The notes beneath the pieces are model-generated. The model had not been told where the DNA came from and did not search any database. It was given only the letters and a program-made list of their open reading frames with translations. From contig NW_013546850.1 in assembly GCF_000711695.1 (NCBI RefSeq), forward strand, positions 1-22,617: a stretch of DNA of 22,617 nt, written 5' to 3'. Numbering within the stretch: position 1 is the first letter of the stretch; every line of letters starts with the position of its first letter. Below, piece after piece: positions 2,746 through 20,132 of this stretch. This stretch comes from Tilletiaria anomala UBC 951. Its lineage: Eukaryota > Basidiomycota > Exobasidiomycetes > Georgefischeriales > Tilletiariaceae. The position numbers and the translations under genes are program-made.

Positions 2746-3498
2746 TCATGGCGCATTCTCATTCGCTTTCATATCCGTGACCGCTTGCTTCCTGCATGCT
2801 TCCAGGTTGCGCACCTGCCTGCTGTGTTTGTCAAAGTTTTCGGGCGCCAGCCAGGTTTCAAAGCCTCTCTTGATCACAGGCCAGTCGTAGTCTACCATGG
2901 CGAGCCAGATTGTGTCCCTTCCCCTACCCTTGTAGATCCAGTGACTCCGAAAGAGGCCTTCATAGCTGTAACCGAGCCGCTCTGCCGCGCGCTTAGAGTG
3001 CACATTGAGAGAATCGCATTTCCACTCCAGACGCTTGTAGCCCAAATCCTCGAAGGCGTGCTTGGCCAAGGCACATTGTGCTTCTGTTGCCAGCTTGGTG
3101 TGCTGTAGATTGGGACCGAAGAGGACGTGCCCTGTCTCGATGCTTCCATTCTTAGGGCTTCCATTCAGGTAGGCGATAATCCCTTGTGCTTCGCCGTGCG
3201 AATCGACAATCGCATAGATGAACGGGTCGGGTCGGGTTGCTCTGCGTTCTTGCAACCATGCATCAAATTCAGCACGACTCGATGGTCGATGGTAAGGGAG
3301 ATAAGTCCAATGGTCGTTCATCGTACCCTCCCAAAGGTTTTTGCTGAGCGATTCTCCGTGCCGAGCGGGGTCCAAAGGCTCCAATTTACAGCCCGTCACA
3401 GGCCCATGCAGAATAGTTGCAGCTGAGGGGGCGGGCGGAGGCTTGAAAGAAGGCAGGGGCGGGCCCACTGGTTGACCGTAGGAATTTAAGAACGGCAT
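2746..3498 (-). CDS. GNAT-family N-acetyltransferase, tandem copy 2
   Basis: Intronless, 250 residues, with ATG at 3498 and TGA at the end. The open frame extends upstream to about 3582, but the ATG at 3498 puts GQPVGPPLP in the same place as in copy 1, so I chose it. The domain layout is the same as copy 1: LEPLDPARH, IYAIVDSHGEAQGIIAYL, ETGHVLFG, the acetyl-CoA loop LQHTKLATEA, RLEWKCDSLNVHSKRAAERLGY, and a shared end WPVIKRGFETWLAPENFD. By eye the two proteins are about 70% identical. Divergence is concentrated in the N-terminal linker, around SPKNGS, and in the last 25 residues. The substrate is unknown; the family acetylates amines. The 5' side faces the SNT1-like gene across 697 bases, so the two may share a divergent promoter. 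Confidence 0.9.
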   Translation of the reverse strand: MPFLNSYGQPVGPPLPSFKPPPAPSAATILHGPVTGCKLEPLDPARHGESLSKNLWEGTMNDHWTYLPYHRPSSRAEFDAWLQERRATRPDPFIYAIVDSHGEAQGIIAYLNGSPKNGSIETGHVLFGPNLQHTKLATEAQCALAKHAFEDLGYKRLEWKCDSLNVHSKRAAERLGYSYEGLFRSHWIYKGRGRDTIWLAMVDYDWPVIKRGFETWLAPENFDKHSRQVRNLEACRKQAVTDMKANENAP

Positions 3499-4195
3499 GA
3501 TATGAGCGAAGGGAAACACAGTGCGGCTTACACTGAAGAGACGTGGATAGGCTCTATCTTGGCAGCCTAGTCGTGAGGGCAAGACGGCAAACTCAGCATG
3601 CGACAGGGCGATATTTATGTTTAGGTCATGTACGATACCGATAGCATGAACTGATTGAGAGAAAGTCGAGTCACTTTGGGGTTAACTCAAGTGTGGCTAG
3701 CCATTAGAACCCCTTAGGAACGCCTAACTGTTGCGAGTATGCCTTCGTAAATCGCAATGGGTCGAGCCTCGAGGTGACGGAGAGTGGATTTACCGGGAAT
3801 GCAAGAGAACCACGGCGATTCCCATTTCCCTCAATTCGGTTTGTGGTTCACCCTGACCACAATTGCGGGAATCCCAACCTTCTGCAAGTTTTTGCCCGAA
3901 TTCGGGTTATCAATCACCACTCATTAATAACCGTTATGCCCCTCGTCGCTCATCGACCGTAGTTCCAAGATCCGTTGTAGATTGCTCAGATTTTGCTGTG
4001 GCCAACAGCACTGCCTGCGAAATGTTCGAGACACTTTCGCGCCTCATCCGCTCATCGCTTCTTCGTGTTTTTGTGCAAAAGCTGTTGCCGACAGCCTTAA
4101 CCGGCGAGTGAAGCCCCAGTGTAGAGCATATCTCGCTGCGCTCAATGCTCTGAGCATGCGAGGACCTACCCTTACCCTCGCTCTCACGGATTGCC
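3499..4195. promoter_or_regulatory. Divergent promoter region, GNAT copy 2 / SNT1-like
   Basis: Non-coding stretch between two genes pointing away from each other. A perfect 12-base palindrome CCCGAATTCGGG lies at 3895-3906. It contains the everted triplet pair CCG-N4-CGG that some fungal zinc-cluster factors can bind, but by itself this is weak evidence. Two upstream ATGs lie just before the SNT1-like start: a two-codon frame at 4145-4153, and a frame starting at 4156 that runs past the main start to 4233. Both could damp translation if they are in the mRNA. Confidence 0.45.
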
Positions 4196-7100
4196 ATGGA
4201 GCAAGGCAGGTCTTGCACAGAAGAAGGCGGTAACGCTGGCGCTGGTGCAGGCGCGCAGGCGAAAGCCGGATCAGCCGATAGAGTCCAAGCTGCTCGTGAG
4301 GTAGAAGGGCAGGGAGGGCAGGACAGAGTACTACCTTCCAAGCTTGTGGATGCAAATATGCCAAATCGCTTAGAGCAGGTGGATGCCATGGACGATATGC
4401 ATCCAGACGCAGCCTGTGCGCAGCAGGTCGTGGCTTCGCGCGTGGATGCAACAGAACAAGCTGAAGGAGATTCCGCAGCAGGGGTGGTAGAAGCAACTGA
4501 GATTGAGCATATGGAGGATGCGCAGTCCATTCGGTTGCGGCAAAGGGCAGCTGAGAAAGGTGCAACAGCCTCAGGGGGCACCTCAAACCAGACACTAGCG
4601 GAGAACCTCGTAGGTGACGCAGTGTATGCGCCTGAAACGATGCAGGTGAGCGTCAGGCCTACCCATTCCTGCACTGCCTTCGGTGGCTGACATTATTCCT
4701 GATTTATCGTCCAACAATCACAGACTGGAAATTCTCATCCAGCATCAAAAGTATCAAAGGTAGTGGCAATGACGACGGTCGGGCCTATCAGATCATTTCA
4801 AACGCGCGAAGTCTCGCAGGATGGACAGGAAGAGGGTGAAGCGATTGATGAAGATGAAACGCGGGTGAAGCCAGGGCAAGTCTTTCCCACCTCTGCTTCT
4901 TCGTCAGGTGCATCCCTTCAGAATGGGGCATCCATGAGCAAGGTGCAACAGTCTTCGGGCCTTTTGGCGGGCCGACCACCAAGCATGCATCGCAGAGAAG
5001 GAGATCAAGACTCAAGCGAAGAGGAAGGGATGATCACTCTTGCTGAGGAGGGCCAGATCAATGAAGAGGAAGAGGAGGAGGGGCAAGAGCCGAGATCAGC
5101 GTCGTCTGGCTCACGGCGTGATCCGAAGCTCAGCTCGGGCCAGCGTGCACCCTCCCCGTTGCACGAAGCCAGCCACAGCTTCAGTCGGTCGCATCTGCGC
5201 CCGGCATACTCTTCTCATCATTCGCTCGCACGCCGACCACCTCCTTTGCTAAGCTCTGGGGATCTTGAGCGCGACCGGGATTGGGGCAGGGAAAGAAGAA
5301 GGCGCACCGACACGTCACGTTCCTTGTCTCACCCTTCTACATCGCTTGACTCGAATAGCCCTAGTGTACCTTCTGTTGCTTCCGTCTGGACAGGTGGCGC
5401 TGCGCCTCTTTCGACTGCCGCATTCAGAGATCGGGACCCGAGCGTTGAGAGCGGCCCTCAAAAGTGGGATGCATCGTACAGGCGCGATTCAAGAGATCGC
5501 GAGCGCGAAGCTTCGAGATATCGGGAGCCTGAGCGTGATCGCGACCGCGAAAGAGAGAGGGATAGAGGATGGGATCGTGACCGGGATCGCAGATCTAGCC
5601 ACCATCGTGAGCGAGAGGGTGTCGTTTCTGCAGCTTATGCCGATGCAAGAAGGTTCAGTGATCGTGGACGGGAAAGGGATGCCAGAGACCCGATGTCGGA
5701 TCGCCGGGCGTCCGGTTGGGACAGAGAAAGGGAAGATTTAGCGAGGACCGAACGGTACGTCCTTGCACACTGCTTTCTTTGTGCAGGTCTTTGCTGACAG
5801 ATGGTCCCATTCTGCAGACATCAGCCTCCGAGCCGCGAGTCAGCACGTCCGAATGCACCTTTTTTGGTTTACCCCATCCCGCCAGAGCGTGACCGATGGA
5901 ATCGACACCACACCAATCGTGAGCGTCCGCGAGAGCCTACGATAGAGCGAGACATCGATGCGCTTTCGACTCCGTTGGCCCAGTCAGCGTCTTCTACCGC
6001 GCTACTCTCTGGGCAAGAAGCCATTCGTAACGCATACAGTAGGCGTAGACCTTCACCCGACTTTCATGAATTAAACGGAAGCGACACTGGGGAGCGTCGG
6101 CGAGGCGCAGCAAGACAGCACTCAGAAGAGCCGCGTCGTCGTTTATCTCCTACGCGCTCTGTCACCGGTGGAAGCGATCGCGGGTCAGGCTCATATGACC
6201 GCCCGAAGCTCATCGACTCACAGCGGGGCCTGGGGAACGAGTGTGAAGGAGCTCGCGATCGAGAGGAGAAGCGTACACCTCAATCCAAGCCTCCTTTGCA
6301 CTTGCAAGCGACAATATTGCAAAAGTCAAACAGTGCAGAAAGCGAGGCAAAGCGCACGGACGCATTTCCCACCCCTCGCAAGACACCTATGGGGACGCCG
6401 ATGGATCCAGGGTTTGTGCAGCGGTGTGATGCTTTGGTACACAAAGCGCTGCAATCTGCGCCTGCAACAGACGCGACTGCAATGGCTGCACCTGTCGCGA
6501 GCCCAAGGACGTCGGTAAGGGCAATCTCGGAGGAGGCTCTGGCAGGCTTGCCCAATGAGCGCAAGCCCGAGGTGAAGACTGAGCCAGTGCTTGAGACTGG
6601 CACTGAGATTGGTCAGGACGATCGGCAGGCGTTCAACGATGAAGCTCAGCGGCATGAAGTGCCAGTGCTCAGCGCCGCCAAACTTGCATCACCCACGACA
6701 ACCATTGCGGTCATCGAAACTGCTCTCTCCGTCTCCGCTCCAAGCACAAGTGTTGCCCCTACCGCAACAATGCCATCAGAACCTTCCGGTTCCTCATTAT
6801 CTCTTGAGACTTTGGCAGACCTAGCCACAGCTGAAGCTGATCCTGCATCCTCGTTCGCGCCTGAAGTGGCACTTGTGGGCGCCAAATCCGACCGAGGCCG
6901 CTCCTCAACTCACGATTTGGTTTCACCGACAGGAAGCTCTCACATCGAACCCGTGACGCGTGTCACAGAAATGGAGAACGCCGTCGCTCACCAGCTTGCT
7001 ACAGAGCTACAGGCTACGGCTGCTTTGGAAGAAGATAGCGTGAAGCAGATCAACTCCGAACCTGAGATGCTCGAAGACACTAGCATGCAAGATGTGCAAC

Positions 7101-9958
7101 TCTTGCAAGAAGAGGAAGAGCATGACGGCCGTGATCCAGAAGCGATCGCGGAAGCGAAACGCAGACGAGAAGAAGCGATGGAGACTGCAATGCGTCGATC
7201 AACTCTACGCATGATTGTCAGTCAGTCAGGCATGCCGAAACCGACACACTCCATCGTCAAGGAGAACCGAGCAGTCGCACAGTGTACTCACGAGCAACTC
7301 CGAGATCAGTCCGTCTTTCCCGACACGTATGTTGAGGAGGGTCCTTTGTGGTTGCGACACGATGACGAGTGCGTTAAAGCTGTTCAGAATCGTGTTCGGA
7401 GCATCGAGGTCCACAGGCAGAAGCGCTTGCATGTCAAGATCGAACAACTCCGACAGCAGTATCGCAAGCTCAATGATGAGTGGCGTGTGCATTGCGAGCA
7501 CCTTAACCGCTGGAATGAGCGCAAGGAACGGCGTTCGGCGGTTCAAACTGGTACTGGCACACCTGCTGCTGAGCAAGACTTCATTGTCTCGATGATGACC
7601 CTGGCCACTTCCCGCACCAATCGGCGCAACATGAACACGGGGTTTGCGGGATTTGGAGACGCTGTCCGGTCTGAAGCCGAATTCTTAGAGATCTTAGCCT
7701 CGCTTGAGAGTGCGGACATGCAAGATCCAACGATGCGTGCTGCGCGGACCACCGCTACGACTCCAAACATGCTTCTAGATCCCGACTCCACCAAGCCTAT
7801 TTTCAACAATTACGAAGACAACAACGGGTTTGTCGCTGACCCGGTTGCGTTCTATTTCAACAAGTTCGACCCAGACTTTTGGTCGGATGAAGAGAGAACA
7901 GTTTTTTTGCGCAAGTACGCCCTCTACCCGAAGCAGTTCGGCAAGATCGCCTCATTCTTGGAGCACAAGACTACTCAGCAATGCGTCTCCTTCTATTATG
8001 CAACCAAGAAACTGCCAAATTACGATTACAAAGCTCTTGCGGCGGCTCGAAATCGCGAGCGCAAACGCAAGGTCCGCCCGAAGTCAAAAAAGGCAAAGGG
8101 CAGCGCGCTGATGGCAGATCTTGCATCGACTAAGCCAGACGACCTGGAATGTGCCGATGATGTGGATTCTCCAGCCGAGCCCGGTGGCATCACAAGCATG
8201 ACGGGCAGTCGTCGCAAGCCGACAATGACCAGCAATCGCTTCACACCTCAAGAAGAGCATGATGAACAGCGTGCGAGCTCCAATTCCAGTCGGAAGCGCC
8301 GGGCCACAGAGGATCAGTCAGGAGACAATATCAACAAGAAGAAAAGCAAGAAGGCAAGAAGACAAAAGGAACCTCGGGAACCCAAGGCAGGCCCCCCAAC
8401 TGCCGCCGAGGAAGTCAAAGTGATAGCATCAGTGGAAGAGATACCTTCTGAAGCAGCCCCATCTCGAGCTCTGAGCGACCTTGCAGCCGCTGCAGTGCTG
8501 GAAGCGTTGGCCGGTGTTACTCCACCAGAGCCTGTTGCTGACAAAGCCACTGGGAAGAGGTTGAAGAAAGCAAAGAGCACATTCCTGGAGGGCGTACAAG
8601 AGGGCAAGAAGAAGTCGCGCTCCTCAACCTCTTCGTACTGGTCGGTCGCTGAGCGTACAGAGTTTCTCAAAGCCTTCGCGATGTATGGCGAAGATTGGGA
8701 CATCATCTCTTCTACCCTTCCTACAAAATCCGCGGCACAAGCAAAGAACTTCTTCCACCGCATGATGGAGAAGGAGAGCGAAGAAAGTAAAGACTTTCAG
8801 GAGGCTGCACAGATTGCGGCAGAAAATGCTTCTCTTCCATTGGAGCAAAGAAGGCAAGAGGCCATCAAGATGATTGTTCGTCAGGGTGCCTCTGCGGTAG
8901 GCCTGTCTGCGCCGGCCGGAAGCTCGCCATCATTGGCAGCAGCATCCAATGCGCTTCCGAGGATGGGCTCATTCACCGGAACACAGAAGGAGGACCGCTC
9001 CAGGACGCCTCCTCCGGTGCAGCCTGTGGGGCCACCACGCGGCTTCGGTATCAGCAGCCTTCTCAATGAAGAGCCGCCACGGGCTGCGTCCAAACCTGCA
9101 CGTGAAGCGGTTCAGGAGTGGTTTGGCAGTGAGCCTCAATCGCAACAAGTGGAAGCTGATGCCAACGAGGAAGACACAGATGAGGAGGCTGATCAAAGAG
9201 CGCATCAAGCACCGCCCCAGGAACCCCCTGTTGGTCACTTCTACGAGCCTCAGCAACGGCATGTGCACGAAGCGCAAGCAGTCCAGAGCAGCTACGGGTC
9301 AACGACAAGCCCGGCACCGCGCCCATACCTACCGAGCCTCGCTCGCACCTACGATCCACCATACGGCCATAACATGCTTGGATCCCGACCATATAGTGCG
9401 TCTAGTTTCACTGGAACGCCACTTCCTCTTCCGTACGAGCAACGCCTTGCAGACGAACCCATGCAAGCGCGACATCACATAGAGCGTTCATCCTCGGCAT
9501 ACCAGCGTTTTCCTTCCACCGAAAGCCCTGGCGTCCGCGATGACCACGGATATGTGCGCTCCGAGACAGCTCCGCTGCACAGCGGGCCACCTCGGTCGGC
9601 AGACCCGCCGCATCTGACGGCGGGTCTGCCTTCGTTCCAGCCCTCGGCGGCGTACAGTCGACCGTCTCCTCTGTCTTCCGGTGTTTCGAGCTCATATAGC
9701 AGCTACCCTGCGCCAGGTGCGAGCTACCGTTCTCAAGGGGGCGCCTTGCCACTGCTTTCCTCTTATACGCGGCCTATGGAGTTCCCTGGTCGCTCTGATG
9801 ATCCGCGCCAAGATTTGCGTCTTCCACCACCGTCAGGTGCTTTCTCCTCGCTTGGACGTCCACCTACTCTCTCGTCCAATCCCGCAGAACACCGCTTCAG
9901 CGGGTCACACTCGCTGTCTCCGTCTGGAGAAGGTCATCCTCACCACAGAGGTTCGTAA
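4196..9958 (+). CDS. SNT1: Snt1/NCoR/SMRT-like SANT-domain corepressor scaffold
   Basis: Three exons: 4196-4645, 4724-5754 and 5818-9958, with introns of 78 and 63 bases that keep the frame, giving 1873 residues. The ATG at 4196 has a strong context (GCCATGG). The first 1000 residues are mostly disordered and charged, with an RD/RE-rich block at about residues 407-448. A basic coiled coil spans about 1016-1070. SANT1 (about 1178-1230; FWSDEER, KQFGKIASFLEHK, FYYATKK) is followed by a very basic stretch. SANT2 (about 1434-1482) has YWSVAERTEFLKAF and AKNFFHRMM. The tail is rich in Pro, Ser and Tyr. Coiled coil plus SANT1 is the deacetylase-activating arrangement of NCoR/SMRT and yeast Snt1. 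In yeast, Snt1 is a scaffold of the Set3 complex with the Hos2 deacetylase. The role is therefore inferred as nuclear, recruiting and activating a class I histone deacetylase. The protein is longer than yeast Snt1 because of the disordered flanks. It converges with the Lunapark gene, 154 bases between stops. Confidence 0.9.
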
Positions 9959-12899: not shown

Positions 12900-15800
12900 A
12901 TGGCCAGCGGCAGTCGGACGACGATCTGTCGCCAGCTAGCGCAAGCGGCATATTCCCTCCTTCGCACCGAGCGCCCTCGGAGAAGTCTCTTACCCAGCTA
13001 TCTAGTAGCGAGTCAGGCGGACGCAAGAGCGGATGCCAATGCCGCTATCTGCCTAGCCGCAGCGAGTCCATGTCGCGTGTCACCTCGCAGAGACTACTCT
13101 GCGGCTGCAGTCAAACCTATCGAACCGGAGTCGCTGCGTACTTCTCATTCGAAGCGCCGAGGTGGGTGCTCGCACTTGCACATGATGTGTTAGGGCATCA
13201 CGAGAGCTCACTACAAGATCATGTCTTCTCCCTTACTTCAGCTCCGCGAAACACTGTCGGCGTGCAGCTTCTTTCGCCTTCTCTGCACTCGCAACTCTTT
13301 CCACCGGGTTCATGTTCTCATCTGCCCGGTGTCGACCCCCTTGCCTTGTCCATAGCGCAAGAGCATCTATCTTCGCATGGGCTTCAACCATCTCAAGCTT
13401 CCGTCTTACCCGAAGTCTCATTCCAACTTCCCCCGCTGCGCCATGAGGAGCGTCCGCGCCAGCCGCTTCGGCTGCCATCGCTGCCGTCCGGCCAGAAGGA
13501 TACAAGGGGCATCGACCAAAAGTGTCAGCCCACTGGGCCAAATTTGGCAGAGCACTTTTGGATCATTGGCAGAGAGGCTGCTCAGCCGTGGCTCGGCATG
13601 GCACATCTTCTAGCCAAGCAGGACATGCCGCCGAAGCCAGAAGGCGTCTGTGCCAACTACCGCACCAGGGGGACGTCGGCTGACGAAGGTGAAGCCGAGG
13701 TAGGCTTTGCTGCAGAGGATTGGCTGGCGCTAGAGTCGTCTATCCGCAATATACACGACTTGCGACCCCCGCAATGGGTGCGTCGAGCGGGATGGACGCG
13801 CTACCCTCTCTTGCGCTCTGCCGACAGAGACCCTGCAACCGCTTTGGGGGTCGGCGAACCAATACCTTTCCCACCCGCAGAAGACGGACCGATGGTATTC
13901 GATGTCGAGACAATGCCTCGTTGCAGTCATTTTGCAGTGATGGCCACGGCAGTTAGCGAGAAGGCGTGGTACTCTTGGCTGTCTCCTTGGCTCCTGGGCG
14001 AATCGAACGAGATGGATCACCTCATCCCATTTGGCGCGGGCAGAGGTACAACCGCGCGTCTGATAGTCGGGCATAATGTCGGCTATGATCGTGCGCGCGT
14101 GCTGGACGAGTACAGCCTCGAACGCTCCAGCATCCGCTGGCTCGACACGATGAGCCTGCACGTCGCGACACGCGGCATCAGCTCGCCGCAACGCCCAGCT
14201 TGGATGCAACACGCCAATGCGCGCAAGATGCGTGAGACGGAGAAAAAACTTGAACGCTTGGAAGTGGAGAATGCAGCTCGCGAAGAGATCAAGCGCATCC
14301 TCGGAGGCGAGGGCGTGGTCGACGATGACGCTCTCAGCGGCATGGACGCCGCACAACTTGTGGAAGAATACTTTAGAGAGCAGAGAGAGGCGATGCGCGA
14401 GGCGGTCGCCGACGTTCTCAATTCGCTCAATGCTAACCAACAGCGTTCCCACGCCGAGAGTACCTCCGAAGGACCCCCTGTCGAGGCCGATGGCACCATC
14501 AACGGCAATGGTGATGACGCTGCTTCCGCTTCTCTGTGGCAAGATGTTACATCCAAAAATTCGCTGGCGGATGTTGCTGAGCTGCATTGCGGTATCACGC
14601 TGTCGAAGGACTCGCGTAATATCTTCGTCGAGAGCGAAAACCGAGAAGAGGTGCTGGAACATCTGGACGAACTGCTCGAATACTGTGCAACAGATGTCGA
14701 CGTTACGCACAAGGTCTTCAAAAATGTGTGGCCGTTTTTCGTCGAGGAGAACTGCAGACACCCAGTCACGATGGCTGGCGTATTTGAACTTGGCAGCACG
14801 TTCTTGCCTGTCGATCAGGAGTGGAACAAGTACATTGAGCACAGCGAGCAGTGCTTCCGCCAGGCCAGCGACGCAGTCAGAGACAGCCTCGTGAGCCTCG
14901 CCGAAAGTGTCAGGGAGCAAGGCTGCAAAGACCTGTCATGGGAAAAAGCAGAGGCGATTGCAGAGAGGCGACAGCGAGCGGAGGACCAAGTCGCGGCGTA
15001 TATGGAATTCCGCGATGTAGAGCCATTTCCCTACCAGCACCACAGTCAGATTCAGCCTGAGACGCAAGCATGGTGGGAGCGAGATCCTTGGCTCTCCCAG
15101 CTAGACTGGTCTCCTAAGAAACCCAAGAAGACCAAGGCTAGCGCGGTCGCAGGCAAAAGCGCCGAACTGGGGGAACCACTTGTGGCGGATCCAGGTCACC
15201 GAATCGTGCCGACTTGGTACCGTGACATGGTCTTCAAGGCACCACCGAGCGGCATCAGTTTGCGCTCGCCAATTGCTCTCTCGCTTGTCCGCTTGTCATA
15301 TGAGGGTCAACCGCTGATTCGGGATGACCAAGGTCGATGGATGACCGAGGCGCACGGGGTCCTTAATGAGCTGGGAAATGTTCAGAACCCCTTGACGTCC
15401 ACCTTTCTTAAGACCAAGTTCGGCAAGTCTTTCGCTTCGCTGGCGCAGTCGCTTGGTAATGCAGCTGTCGAAGCACTCCGAGCTAAAGATCAAGAAGCGA
15501 CCAAAGGTGCAATCCATGAGCTCGCAGAGCAGGCATTGGCTGAAAGGAGCAATATTCCTGCACATCTCCAGCATCTCGATTGGAGTCCAGTTCAAGTGCG
15601 GGATCCAGAAAATACTGAAGAAGCAGTTGAAGACCAGTCATGGTGGCCCAAGTGGTATTGGGACTTGTTCAAGTCAGCAACTGGGCAGCTTGAGTTGACG
15701 ATTCGTTCAAAAGTGGCTCCGACGCTCCTTAACGTCAGCTGGCGCGGCCGTCCGCTGTTCCACAGCCGGGAGCACGGCTGGGTGTATCGCGTCGACCCAG

Positions 15801-17893
15801 AAATCAGCCAGGACAACGACTTTACCACGCGCCAGAAGCCCGTCGAGTTCACCCAAAAGGCAGATGCTGCTCTTAAACTCTTGACTGGGCCCCAGGAGCA
15901 CGTCATCAATTCGCGTGGTCGCGAGACGAATGAGCTCGTGTCAGATCCGACGCGTCCTACATTCTTCAAAGTTCCTCACTCTGCAGGTGATGAAGCCAAC
16001 GTGGGAAGTCCGTTCGCCAAGTCTTTTATTACGTTCTTCGAAGACGGCACTCTTCGAAGTGAGCATCCGAGCGAAGAGGGAAGGCTTGCGTCGAAAGCTG
16101 CGTTGGACATGAATGCGCAGTGTAGCTATTGGATCTCTGCGCGAGACCGCGTGAAGCGCCAAATGGTCGTCTGGGACGGCCAATGTAGAGTTGCGATGGG
16201 CGCAAAAGATGAGACCTCATCAGTGCAACTTGGCATGATCCTTCCGCAGGTCATTCAGATGGGCACTGTCACCCGACGCGCCATCGAGAAGACCTGGCTC
16301 ACGGCGTCCAACGCAAAGAAAAATCGCGTGGGATCCGAACTGAAGTCAATGGTGAAAGCACCGCTCGGATGGAGTATTGTCGGCGCGGACGTGGACAGCG
16401 AGGAGTTGTGGATATGCAGCGTGATGGGAGACGCACAGTTTGGCGTTCACGGAGCGACTGCGGTCGGATGGATGACGCTAGAGGGTACAAAAGCGCAAGG
16501 CACCGATCTGCATTCGAAGACTGCCAGCATCCTGGGTACGAGTCGGAACCAGGCAAAAGTATTCAACTATTCTCGCATCTACGGCGCAGGTATTCGACAT
16601 GCCACGCAGCTCATGCTCAAGGCCAACCCATCGATGCCCATTGAGGAGGCGATGCGTCTCTCCAAGCAGCTCTACACAGCAACCAAAGGTCAAAACACGC
16701 ACAGCACAGATTACTTTGGGTCCAAATTCTGGTATGGCGGCAGTGAAAGCTACGTTTTCAACAAGCTCGAAAGCATCGCGATCAGCGACCGTCCGCGTAC
16801 GCCCGCCTTAGACTGCGGGGTCACAGCAGCTCTATCGCGCAAATTCCTTCCCAAACGACGGTGGATGGACGGCAAGGTAGGAGAGGATTACATGCCGAGC
16901 CGTATCAATTGGGTTGTCCAGTCCAGTGGTGTTGACTACCTCCACATGCTGACTGCCGCCATGTCACACCTCTGCACCACGTACGGCATCGACGCACGCT
17001 TCATGTTGAGTGTTCATGACGAAGTCCGATACTTGTGCAAGGAGGAGGATCGGTACCGGACTGCGCTTGCACTGCAGATTGCCAATCTCTGGACACGCGC
17101 GATGTTCGCGTATCGTCTCAACTTCGATGATCTACCCCAAGGCTGTGCTTTCTTCTCTCAGGTCGACATTGATCGGATCTTGCGCAAGGAAGTCGACGAC
17201 GCTTGTGTGACGCCCTCTCATCCTGATCCAGTTCCACCTGGCGAGGCACTTACTATCGAGGAGCTGCTCGAGAAGACCGATAACGGCAATCTCTCCCGTG
17301 CGAAGCCTACGTCTGCATCGCTTTCTTGTCCTCCTTACAGCGCAGATCCGATCATGCGGCCAGTGTTCCCGCCATTCGAGTGGACACATCAGACCCACAG
17401 GTCTTCAGGGCAGGGAGGCCTGCTTTTCCTTCAAGCGCAAGCCACAAGCGATATCAACGAGATCCGCAGCCTTGACAGGCGCGCTCAAGCACTCGTATCC
17501 TCGAACACGCGGCGTAGTGTTCAAACAAACACCAAGGCACAGCGACCCTTCCTCTCTCGTCGTCCTTTTCATGTCTCGAAGACGTTCAGCGCAGGAAGCG
17601 CAGCGCGCGCCTATTCGACGAGCTGTAGATCTCAACCTTCCACGACTCAGCTCATGCCCACCTTCCCGCGGCCACCAGCTCAATCTCCGCAGCCCTTCTT
17701 CCGAACCTTGCGGCATCGGTCGACAGTCTTCAGTCTTTACAGATCCTTGCTGAAGGCTTGTTCCTCGGACCATCCGATGCTGCGGCAGTGGATTTGCCGC
17801 ACTACTCGCCACAATCGACAACAGACAGGTCCTGGGCGCACAGCAGCACAAATTCGTGAGGGCCAACGAGTATGTCAGCATTTTGCCGAATAA
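12900..17893 (+). CDS. MIP1: Mitochondrial DNA polymerase gamma catalytic subunit; frame continues into the LYR gene
   Basis: Exon 1 is 12900-13161 and exon 2 starts at 13242 after an 80-base intron. The ATG at 12900 (context ACCATGG) opens an Arg/Ala/Ser-rich mitochondrial presequence with a probable cut at RRDY/SAA (residue 66). The unspliced frame upstream of the intron has only non-ATG starts and lacks such a presequence. Exonuclease motifs: Exo I D308-V-E310, Exo II with D370, Exo III YCATD with D572. Family A polymerase motifs: A GADVDSEELW (D1137), B K1193 to Y1201 (RIYG), C VHDE (D1347). All catalytic residues are present, so it should replicate and proofread mtDNA. The Exo II-III gap is about 75 residues longer than in human POLG and holds a charged, partly coiled insert (about 415-537). 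Polymerase-like sequence seems to end near residue 1505. No stop follows until 17893, reached only if the downstream LYR intron is kept, so the true C-terminus is uncertain. Spliced through, the frame gives a 1826-residue fusion ending at 18608. Confidence 0.88.
17495..17653 (+). other. Presequence-like linker between MIP1 and the LYR module
   Basis: In the MIP1 frame, residues 1500-1596 contain no Asp or Glu and 17 Arg/Lys, starting just after the last polymerase-like sequence and running into the LYR domain. The middle reads SRRPFHVSKTFSAG and then ARAYSTS. R-A-Y/S-T fits the R-3 type of mitochondrial processing site, with the cut after Tyr1545. The amphipathic, basic, Ser/Ala-rich look is that of a mitochondrial targeting sequence placed inside an open frame. 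No in-frame ATG lies close upstream of it; the nearest is at 17354. Confidence 0.5.
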
Positions 17894-18608
17894 CACGAAT
17901 GCGGTTTGGTGTTGATTGTTTTTGATATCGCTGTACAGCTCCTTTATTTATTCCTTCGGGCCAAGGAAGGGTCAGCTTCGGCCCAAGCTGAGGTGCTGAG
18001 CATAGAGGACAAGCTGCGGATTGAAAAGCACAAACGGGACTGGGAAGCAGTTTATGCCGTATTAGATGTGAGCACCGCCTGTTCGACCACGTCACTCTTG
18101 ATCGATGGAAGGCTCTTAATGCTGACGTTTTCAACTGGATATTTAGGAGCCAGCACGGAGACCTAGACTCTCTGGTGCCCTCTTGAAGCCGACTCTGTTC
18201 AATCCGCCGCTGCCACGCTTCAAGCCTGTTCAACCGGATGCAATCACCATGATGATCTTCAAGCGGAGAAAACGCCGACTGATTCGACGGCAATACCAAG
18301 TGAACAACGCAGAGCTTATCGCAAGCGTGCAAGCAGAAAGGGTGCTTTATCGCTCCTTTCGAACCGCTCGCCGCGCCGGAAACGCTACCTCTGACTGGGA
18401 AGATACGAGCAGCTGGCTGGGCCCATTGAATCAGGATCAAAAAATTCTTGCAGCAACATTTGCTGCGGACGTCAAACGCTCACAGATGGTTTTTCCTGAG
18501 CGCATGCTTCGGCAGGCTAAGCAGGTACGCAGGAACAAGCATTGTGCCCTCCTTCGCAAAGCTGAAGCGCGCAAACGCGAGCGGGATCGCGTCATGGACC
18601 TCGGCTAA
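17654..18608 (+). CDS. LYR-motif (Complex 1 LYR family) mitochondrial protein
   Basis: Exons 17654-17869, 17939-18067 and 18147-18608, with introns of 69 and 79 bases; 268 residues if translation starts at the ATG at 17654. The LYR tripeptide is at residues 28-30 in the context TVFSLYRSLL, followed by the helical pattern of the family (LRQWICRTTRHNRQQT, then REGQRLLYLFLRAKEG across the first splice). LYR proteins bind the ISCU/NFS1/HSC20 machinery or acyl-carrier protein and help to assemble respiratory complexes or mitoribosomes. Which role applies here is unknown. After the domain comes KPTLFNPPLPRFKP and a long, very basic tail (KRRKRRLIRR) that I cannot assign. The ATG has a poor context (C at -3) and lies in the same frame as MIP1, with no stop between them. 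The real start may therefore be the MIP1 start, making this the last part of a fusion. It converges with the CCDC174-like gene, 98 bases between stops. Confidence 0.75.
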
Positions 18609-18706
18609 TGTACCGCATATAGCACAAGCAGTCTTTATTTATGCTTTCCAATGCTATATACGTGGACAGTGAACGCGCATCTGTGCCGCCTGAATTTATG
18701 ACGTCG

Positions 18707-20132
18707 CTAATGCGTCTGGCCTGTGCTCTTTGCCTGCGTAACGATGTCGTTGAGGAACTTTTCGACCCTTTGCACCTGCTGTTCCTTCTTGCGACGCTCC
18801 ACCTCAGCATCTCCGAGGAGCTTGCGTCGCTTGGCCTCCACTTCTGCTCGTCTGTCCGCCAAGCGCTTTTGCGCCGTGCTGAGGGGGCGGCTCGAAGCTT
18901 GTGGTGGCAATGAAGAAAGGACTGGTGCGGTTGAGGATGAGTCACCTTGCGGTCGTACTTGGCCATCGATAGACCTGCCGTGCTTGCGCTCTACATCCGC
19001 GAACGGATCATCTGTCGCTCCTAGGTCCTTCTCCTGGGCTACTCCTTCAGCTTCTCGCAACCGTCGCTCTCGTTCGGTGGATTTGCGCTCCGCTCGCAGC
19101 ATCTCCATCTGTCGACGTCTTTCCCCTTCGTCCTTCGAAAATTGATAGAACGCAGCACCCCGATTCCGGATCTCGTGCTTGGCGTCGAAATGCTTGGATG
19201 CGCCGACACTTTGCTTGGCTTCTATCGCCGCTTTACGCTCGGCGAGCGTCGGTGATGGAGGTCGGTATACGGGGAACGCGGTTTGCCGGCCGTAGGAGAC
19301 GAGAGACTCAGAAGGAAGAGCGAAAGCTGCGGCTGTACGTTGGGTGTCATCTAACAACCCCTCTGTCCCCGATATTGGCAGCAAATGAAGTGGGACCTTG
19401 CTGCGCCGTGCAGTGCGCGTTCTGCCGAAATCGTCCACGTACTCGATGATCGGATCATCTGAGGTTGTGTGAACCTCAGGAGTCCTTCTTCCCTCACCCT
19501 CATATTCGCTGCCACTGGCACCCGCATCACACGAGTCGTCATCACTCCCTCCATCCTCCTCTTTTTCCGCCATTTTGCGTTCCCAGTCGACCAGGCCGAG
19601 AGCTTTTTCCCGCTCTTGTTCGGTGAGGCCTCCATGCAGACCTCTTTTGAGCTTGTCGTACATCTCTGCTTTACGCTGCAGCGCTGCGACTCGCTCTCGT
19701 TCGCGTTCGAGCTCGGCAGAAGGAGTCGATGCCCACCGCGAGGTTGTCATCTTGCCTTTTCCTTTGTCCACTTCTCCAGCTTTGTCGGCACGAGAGAGGA
19801 CGCCGGGCGATGGGCGAAGATGAGCCGGAAGACGCTGCCAGAGCAAGAGTGTATCAGTTGGTAACGATAATCTCCGCATTCTGCATCCCCCTGGTATCTT
19901 CATTTATTCGCATGCGACTCACTTTCTCTGGCTTTTTCCACGATGCCATCGCATCTCCAGCTCTGTTGGAACTCTCTTCGATGAACCCTGCGGCATCTGT
20001 ACGAGCAAGACCATGGACATGGCCGCGAGTACTCTGACGCCGCTTTTCAGCAAGATCTGCTTTCAACGATAGGAAAGACGAAGATGATAATTCCTGGCCT
20101 CTGGCTTTTGCCTTGCCGCTATATGAAGGCAT
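18707..20132 (-). CDS. CCDC174: CCDC174-family nuclear protein
   Basis: Two exons, 20132-19923 and 19834-18707, around an 88-base intron (donor GTGAGT, acceptor GGCAG), giving 445 residues from the ATG at 20132. Exon 1 carries the family start with SSSSFLSLKADLAEKRR, and exon 2 continues with GVLSRADK. Recognisable blocks are LQRKAEMYDKLKRG (about 122-135), LVDWERKM, EYVDDFGRTRT (201-211), and GAAFYQFSKDEGERRRQME (about 296-313), which corresponds to the DUF4078 region. The C-terminus is a basic coiled coil (about 390-430). An acidic stretch lies at about 160-185. Human CCDC174 has been linked to the exon junction complex through eIF4A3, so a nuclear, RNA-related role is inferred; its function in fungi is not established to my knowledge. 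The gene ends convergently against the LYR gene. Confidence 0.85.

Follow-up and report, generated by a model that had tools for sequence, protein, structure and literature searches.

It is clear that two mitochondrial proteins can be encoded in a single reading frame, and tandem precursors of this kind, cut in the matrix, are already known. In Schizosaccharomyces pombe, Rsm22-Cox11 joins two mitochondrial proteins in one frame, and these are separated after import (PMC4381221); PMC8847149 gives it an internal targeting-like signal and MPP sites recognised in silico, and lists Etp1 and Atp25 with internal signals and MPP sites of the same in silico origin. Arg5,6 of Saccharomyces cerevisiae is a tandem precursor whose internal cut is made by MPP, according to two reports (PMC8847149, PMC8835746), and in yeast mitochondria cutting is also described at an MPP site of 10 residues built into engineered polyproteins (PMC10450427). 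The first-pass annotation of the locus described here had called on two fission yeast precedents, of which Rsm22-Cox11 is real (PMC4381221, PMC8847149), while its description of Etp1 as a Cox15-ferredoxin fusion finds no confirmation in PMC7140478, which names the S. pombe tandem Yah1-Arh1, citing the etp1 paper. Proteins of the LYR family have themselves been discussed as fusion partners. Angerer 2015 reports 30 predicted LYR fusions in the Pfam LYR clan, nine of them chosen for its Table 2, suggests that such fusions are of use through efficient import and matched expression, and cautions that many of them may be annotation errors (PMC4381221). The Cup1 protein of S. pombe is described as a mitochondrial LYR protein (PMC12811382). 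On the side of the polymerase, the polymerase domain of yeast Mip1 is reported to be followed by an extension with much positive charge and no BLAST similarity to known proteins (PMC3303844).

The locus considered here lies in a window (the whole stretch of DNA that was analysed, 22,617 nucleotides) in which MIP1, assigned to mitochondrial DNA polymerase gamma, runs in one frame into a sequence that is probably of the LYR family. The best available reading, to which we give about an even chance, is that MIP1 and the LYR-type protein form a single tandem precursor that is cut in the matrix. As in Rsm22-Cox11, two mitochondrial modules would stand in one frame; the protein pair differs, and the cut that has been shown for Rsm22-Cox11 is inferred for MIP1-LYR. 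Arg5,6 comprises two enzymes of one pathway, whereas a polymerase and a LYR protein have no known common pathway. The predicted fusions of Angerer 2015 likewise join LYR to another protein, and the word "polymerase" is absent from the main text of that paper (PMC4381221). As in yeast Mip1, an extension follows the polymerase domain, but the one found here goes on into a LYR domain (Table 1).

MIP1 begins at ATG 12900 in a good context (ACCATGG), downstream of a divergent spacer of about 0.7 kb, and the window, judged from its genes, has the character of eukaryotic nuclear DNA in which introns are short. Removal of intron 13162-13241 (GTGGGT...TTCAG) brings back the polymerase frame, and alternative acceptors likewise leave the frame open. 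Pfam matches to DNApol_Exo (2.1e-81) and DNA_pol_A (6.6e-12) are joined by alignments over long stretches with solved Pol gamma chains, the best of them 9c51_A (E 1.6e-212), and it is on the exonuclease and family A domains together with this long similarity that the body of the gene is identified as mitochondrial DNA polymerase gamma (Mip1/POLG). The alignments with POLG subunit gamma-1 stop at about nt 17308, which is the natural end of the chain, its last residues being aligned, and the alignment with 9c51_A goes on past this point to about nt 17380 with low per-residue confidence. Over 17309-17508 the codon score is 0.13 in the MIP1 frame (frame 0) versus -0.01 and -0.01 in the other two, a preference consistent with the C-terminal extension known from fungal Mip1, here in a shortened form (PMC3303844).

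Table 1. Features of the MIP1-LYR locus, with positions in the window
Feature	Position	Strand	Basis and remarks
MIP1 exon 1	12900-13161	+	presequence-like; RDY/SAA, of R-x-Y/S type, would place the mature end at nt 13098, from motif alone
MIP1 exonuclease and polymerase domains	13242-17308	+	ends where human POLG does
MIP1 short C-terminal extension	17309-17508	+	weak 9c51_A alignment to about 17380; codon score
Spacer, presequence-like	17510-17614	+	basic, no Asp/Glu, ends RAY; holds pyrimidine tract 17546-17570
Candidate MPP/Icp55 site RAY/STS	17606-17623	+	motif; residues 1543-1548; mature LYR start expected at nt 17615
Rival LYR start ATG	17654-17656	+	sole in-frame ATG between 17354 and LYR motif; poor context
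LYR coding part 1	17654-17869	+	contains SLYRSLL; PF05347 match on spliced protein
LYR intron 1	17870-17938	+	predicted; 69 nt, GTATGT...TACAG; its retention would bring in an in-frame stop at 17891
LYR coding part 2	17939-18067	+	frame kept; codon score 0.10
LYR intron 2	18068-18146	+	predicted; GTGAGC...TTTAG, 79 nt
LYR coding part 3	18147-18608	+	open frame, codon score 0.18; basic C-terminal tail; stop 18606-18608

Beyond the polymerase the MIP1 frame runs on without interruption, as had been claimed for it: the first in-frame stop, at 17891-17893, lies inside the LYR-type gene and past the LYR motif. The joined frame arises on removal of introns 17870-17938 and 18068-18146, and the predicted product of 1,826 residues was recovered from exons 12900-13161, 13242-17869, 17939-18067 and 18147-18608, with its stop at 18606-18608. 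The open spacer is on its own weak evidence for a shared frame. Frame 0 stays open through the 60 codons of 17474-17653 in 688 of 2,000 dinucleotide shuffles, and through the 115 codons of 17309-17653 in 281 of 2,000; among 3,000 sequences drawn at random from intergenic composition, as given by three stretches taken as intergenic, 8.5% were open for 60 codons and 0.7% for 115. What is not chance-like is a conserved polymerase that has no stop of its own ahead of a LYR domain. At the level of sequence two mitochondrial modules occupy one frame, as in the tandem precursors, the location of the second being assigned from its family. Of the interpretation that the first-pass annotation had placed on the joint, the shared frame is supported: between the two modules there is no stop and no good donor, and a separate promoter and leader would have little space. 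The internal presequence and the matrix cut are plausible and agree with the N-terminus of MIP1.

The LYR part, spliced and counted from ATG 17654, has 268 residues and matches PF05347 with an E value of 7.7e-5, scoring 23.0 bits against a curated cutoff of 24.8, and the L-Y-R tripeptide is present in FSLYRSLLK. The claim that the frame enters a LYR domain is supported by the motif and the match and is tempered by a score that falls below the Pfam curated cutoff. Assignment to the LYR family (Complex1_LYR) is probable on these grounds, and the LYR part is probably mitochondrial, as the family suggests. The LYR part may resemble S. pombe Cup1. Pfam includes a Cup1-like model, and the spliced LYR part, searched against Pfam at E values up to 10, matched no family besides PF05347; no match was obtained for it among PDB sequences or in NCBIfam. 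Ahead of the acceptor of LYR intron 1 a CTNAY branch motif was sought and not found. The stretch 17237-17653, searched alone, matched no Pfam family; among PDB sequences it matched only a phospholipid-transporting ATPase, weakly (E 0.094), and this was judged to be due to chance.

The whole spacer up to ATG 17654, about 17510-17653, is basic and acid-free. As was noticed at first reading, Asp and Glu are absent from 97 consecutive residues. This run, whose 17 Arg/Lys agree with a count by hand, is the longest of its kind in the four sequences examined (the joined MIP1-LYR frame and the Myb, lunapark-like and CCDC174-like ORFs), the next being one of 58 residues in the Myb ORF; 38 of the 97 residues, the LYR helix among them, lie at or past ATG 17654. 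The RAY/STS motif is likewise where it was said to be, at residues 1543-1548, and RxY/S is described as the type of site used by MPP and then Icp55 (PMC8847149). The 45 residues ahead of it have a net charge of +9 and no acid, and windows of 45 residues that are acid-free and as positive number 8 of 4,298 in six proteins, all of them at the joint and the joint window itself included. When the dinucleotides of 17477-17653, a segment chosen to begin just past the last Asp, were shuffled, 30 of 5,000 sequences were open and acid-free with at least as many Arg/Lys, and single-base shuffles of 17510-17653 were open, acid-free and as basic in 15 of 5,000 cases. Among the 14,846 overlapping 48-codon windows that are open in the six frames of the window, 299 lack acids and are no less basic, and these fall in 28 places, the spacer being one. 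Of 5,000 linker shuffles, 1,449 contain the pattern R-x-[YFL]-[AS], and three other ORFs of the window have it seven times between them; the joined frame read from 12821 has it once, at the joint. Because composition and a short motif also arise by chance, and because the codon usage of the spacer is not coding-like, the internal presequence at the joint is only suggestive; an MPP-type cut at RAY/STS, made in the matrix, is plausible. The RDY/SAA site of MIP1 itself makes a cut at the joint more credible without proving it. The N-terminal 45 residues of MIP1 contain three acids and have a net charge of +4, so that a strictly acid-free joint is not required here.

Codon usage was dropped as an arbiter, undecided, since the MIP1 presequence exon (-0.05) and LYR exon 1 (0.03) score as low as the spacer. 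The 60-codon linker has a score of 0.03, which is reached by 40% of 407 open off-frame windows, while the Myb ORF has only 5% of its in-frame windows at or below it, and the 48-codon spacer, at -0.05, scores under its other frames (0.05 and 0.10); the set on which the scores were trained includes MIP1 itself and ORFs with mechanical starts. The low score of the spacer neither excludes coding nor backs it. Over 17650-17829 it is frame 2 that has the top codon score (0.16-0.18), and the LYR match lies nonetheless in frame 0. Frame 2, open at 17627-17857, overlaps LYR exon 1, and its better scores perhaps follow from the richness of the LYR frame in Arg. Among the GA dinucleotides of 17474-17653, one of ten begins a frame-0 codon, a number too small to decide the matter.

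A serious rival to the tandem precursor is overlapping transcription, in which the LYR protein would have its own transcript, starting at about 17572-17653 and translated from ATG 17654, and MIP1 would read on by chance to end in or after the LYR sequence; we regard this as unlikely. The in-frame ATG 17654 sits 26 residues ahead of the LYR motif, as would suit a normal N-terminus, the codon usage of the linker is no better than off-frame sequence, and 60 codons are open by chance as often as the 688 of 2,000 shuffles indicate. Pyrimidine tracts are often found upstream of fungal transcript starts, and the coding strand has one at 17546-17570, of 25 nt and 92% pyrimidine, that could mark a promoter or transcript start region belonging to LYR alone. 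The like of it was seen in none of 156 coding 200-mers and in none of seven other upstream regions (some of these lying before mechanical ORF starts). Two other tracts of such strength occur on the plus strand of the window, at 1120-1137 and 19542-19547, and the second is inside the minus-strand CCDC174-like ORF, so a pyrimidine tract need not flag a promoter. An overlapping pair would still leave MIP1 without its own stop and with LYR sequence attached, and, as frame-0 codon preference reaches to about 17508, the MIP1 3' UTR, the LYR promoter and the LYR leader would have to share about 145 nt, or the last two would have to overlap MIP1 coding DNA; the divergent spacer ahead of MIP1, for comparison, measures about 0.7 kb. 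The poor context attributed to ATG 17654 was confirmed, with C at -3 (CTCATGC), and the out-of-frame ATG 17571 opens a 60-codon ORF that runs beyond ATG 17654, so that the most suitable start for a LYR transcript of its own would lie within 17572-17653, with a leader of at most about 82 nt.

The joint might instead be an artefact, an assembly base error or an unrecognised weak intron masking the true stop of MIP1, which we hold to be rather improbable. Stops in another frame are near at hand, at 17473, 17515 and 17626 (the last being the off-frame stop that had been reported near 17627), and an intron with a weak donor, for example 17298-17392, leads to the stop at 17473. The donors of the region are nevertheless poor. 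With introns of 40-300 nt and donor scores above -2 considered, the best GT donor within 17300-17855 scores -0.44 (17625), where the LYR introns have donors of 3.92 and 2.60, which makes a hidden intron giving MIP1 an early end unlikely; splicing of MIP1 into a nearby stop, the event which the first-pass annotation held would overturn its reading, finds no good donor there among those predicted. From 17625 some acceptors lead back to frame 0 and others to a stop in LYR exon 1 or its intron. Another fair donor, 17856 (2.01), sits within LYR exon 1, and weaker ones lie farther 5', at 17205 (1.14) and 17298 (0.73). Introns from these two were rejected on account of the weak donors and of the residues aligned, weakly, to 9c51_A (RPVFPPFE) that most of their acceptors delete, a loss that the intron 17298-17392 would also entail. 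Frame-0 codon preference is moreover kept to about 17508, and no long single-base run is seen at the joint. It is similarly improbable that the frame is translated whole and left uncut as a permanent polymerase-LYR fusion protein. Such a fusion would draw on the same open-frame evidence as the tandem precursor, and long C-terminal extensions are described for the Mip1 of yeasts (PMC3303844), but the joint is basic and acid-free and has an MPP-type RAY/STS, and the tandems that have been studied, Arg5,6 and Rsm22-Cox11, are reported to be cut (PMC8847149, PMC4381221).

If MIP1 and the LYR-type protein are indeed made as a tandem precursor, the 1,826-residue chain would enter mitochondria by way of the MIP1 presequence, which MPP would take off at RDY/SAA, and MPP would cut the RAY/STS joint as well, with Icp55 trimming the Tyr. 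The cuts would release a LYR protein of about 280 residues, starting STSCRSQ, and a MIP1 that keeps about 100 residues as its C-terminal extension. Made in tandem, the two products would stand in a fixed ratio, and the LYR protein would share the promoter and import signal of MIP1. More tentatively, there may be a fungal lineage in which the mtDNA polymerase and an assembly factor of LYR type come from one precursor that MPP splits at an internal presequence, and in which the capacity for mtDNA replication is in this way held in a fixed ratio to a step of respiratory or mitoribosome assembly; that replication of mtDNA is thereby coupled to either kind of assembly is speculation. Were the tandem reading true, the polymerase-LYR pairing would be a new pair on the short list of mitochondrial tandem precursors, one in which an mtDNA replicase is joined to an assembly-type protein, and the coupling of mtDNA copying to mitochondrial biogenesis could be tested through a single change at the cleavage site. 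It would also be a warning that, in such fungi, the gene models of LYR proteins and the C-terminal extensions of Mip1 may be wrongly annotated.

The pairing of Pol gamma with LYR may already be present, unremarked, in public gene models. No title on a fusion or tandem of polymerase gamma with LYR appeared among the literature matches listed, and LYR is not mentioned in the text of PMC11205540. The collections searched for relatives hold viral, bacterial, archaeal and plasmid records and no fungal nuclear genomes, so that misses in them are uninformative on conservation in fungi. In these collections P0001 gave no pattern match in viral_contigs, no match in plasmids and nine pattern matches in genome_contigs, none of which was confirmed, and an alignment of the palm domain (A1, three sequences) gave 76 pattern matches in genome_contigs and 25 in viral_contigs, again with none confirmed.

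Several other features of the window may be recorded. Two minus-strand ORFs, 1354-2106 and 2746-3582, both match GNAT acetyltransferases (Acetyltransf_3, 3.8e-14 and 1.3e-15) and are possibly a tandem duplicate. The plus-strand ORF 5801-9958, of 1,385 residues, has a Myb domain and a weak match to Myb_DNA-bind_7, and is possibly the TFIIIB subunit Bdp1; an open frame just 5' of it, 4763-5797, may belong to the same gene. The end of the LYR part is separated by 98 nt (18609-18706) from that of the CCDC174-like ORF, which runs towards it, and their 3' UTRs may overlap.
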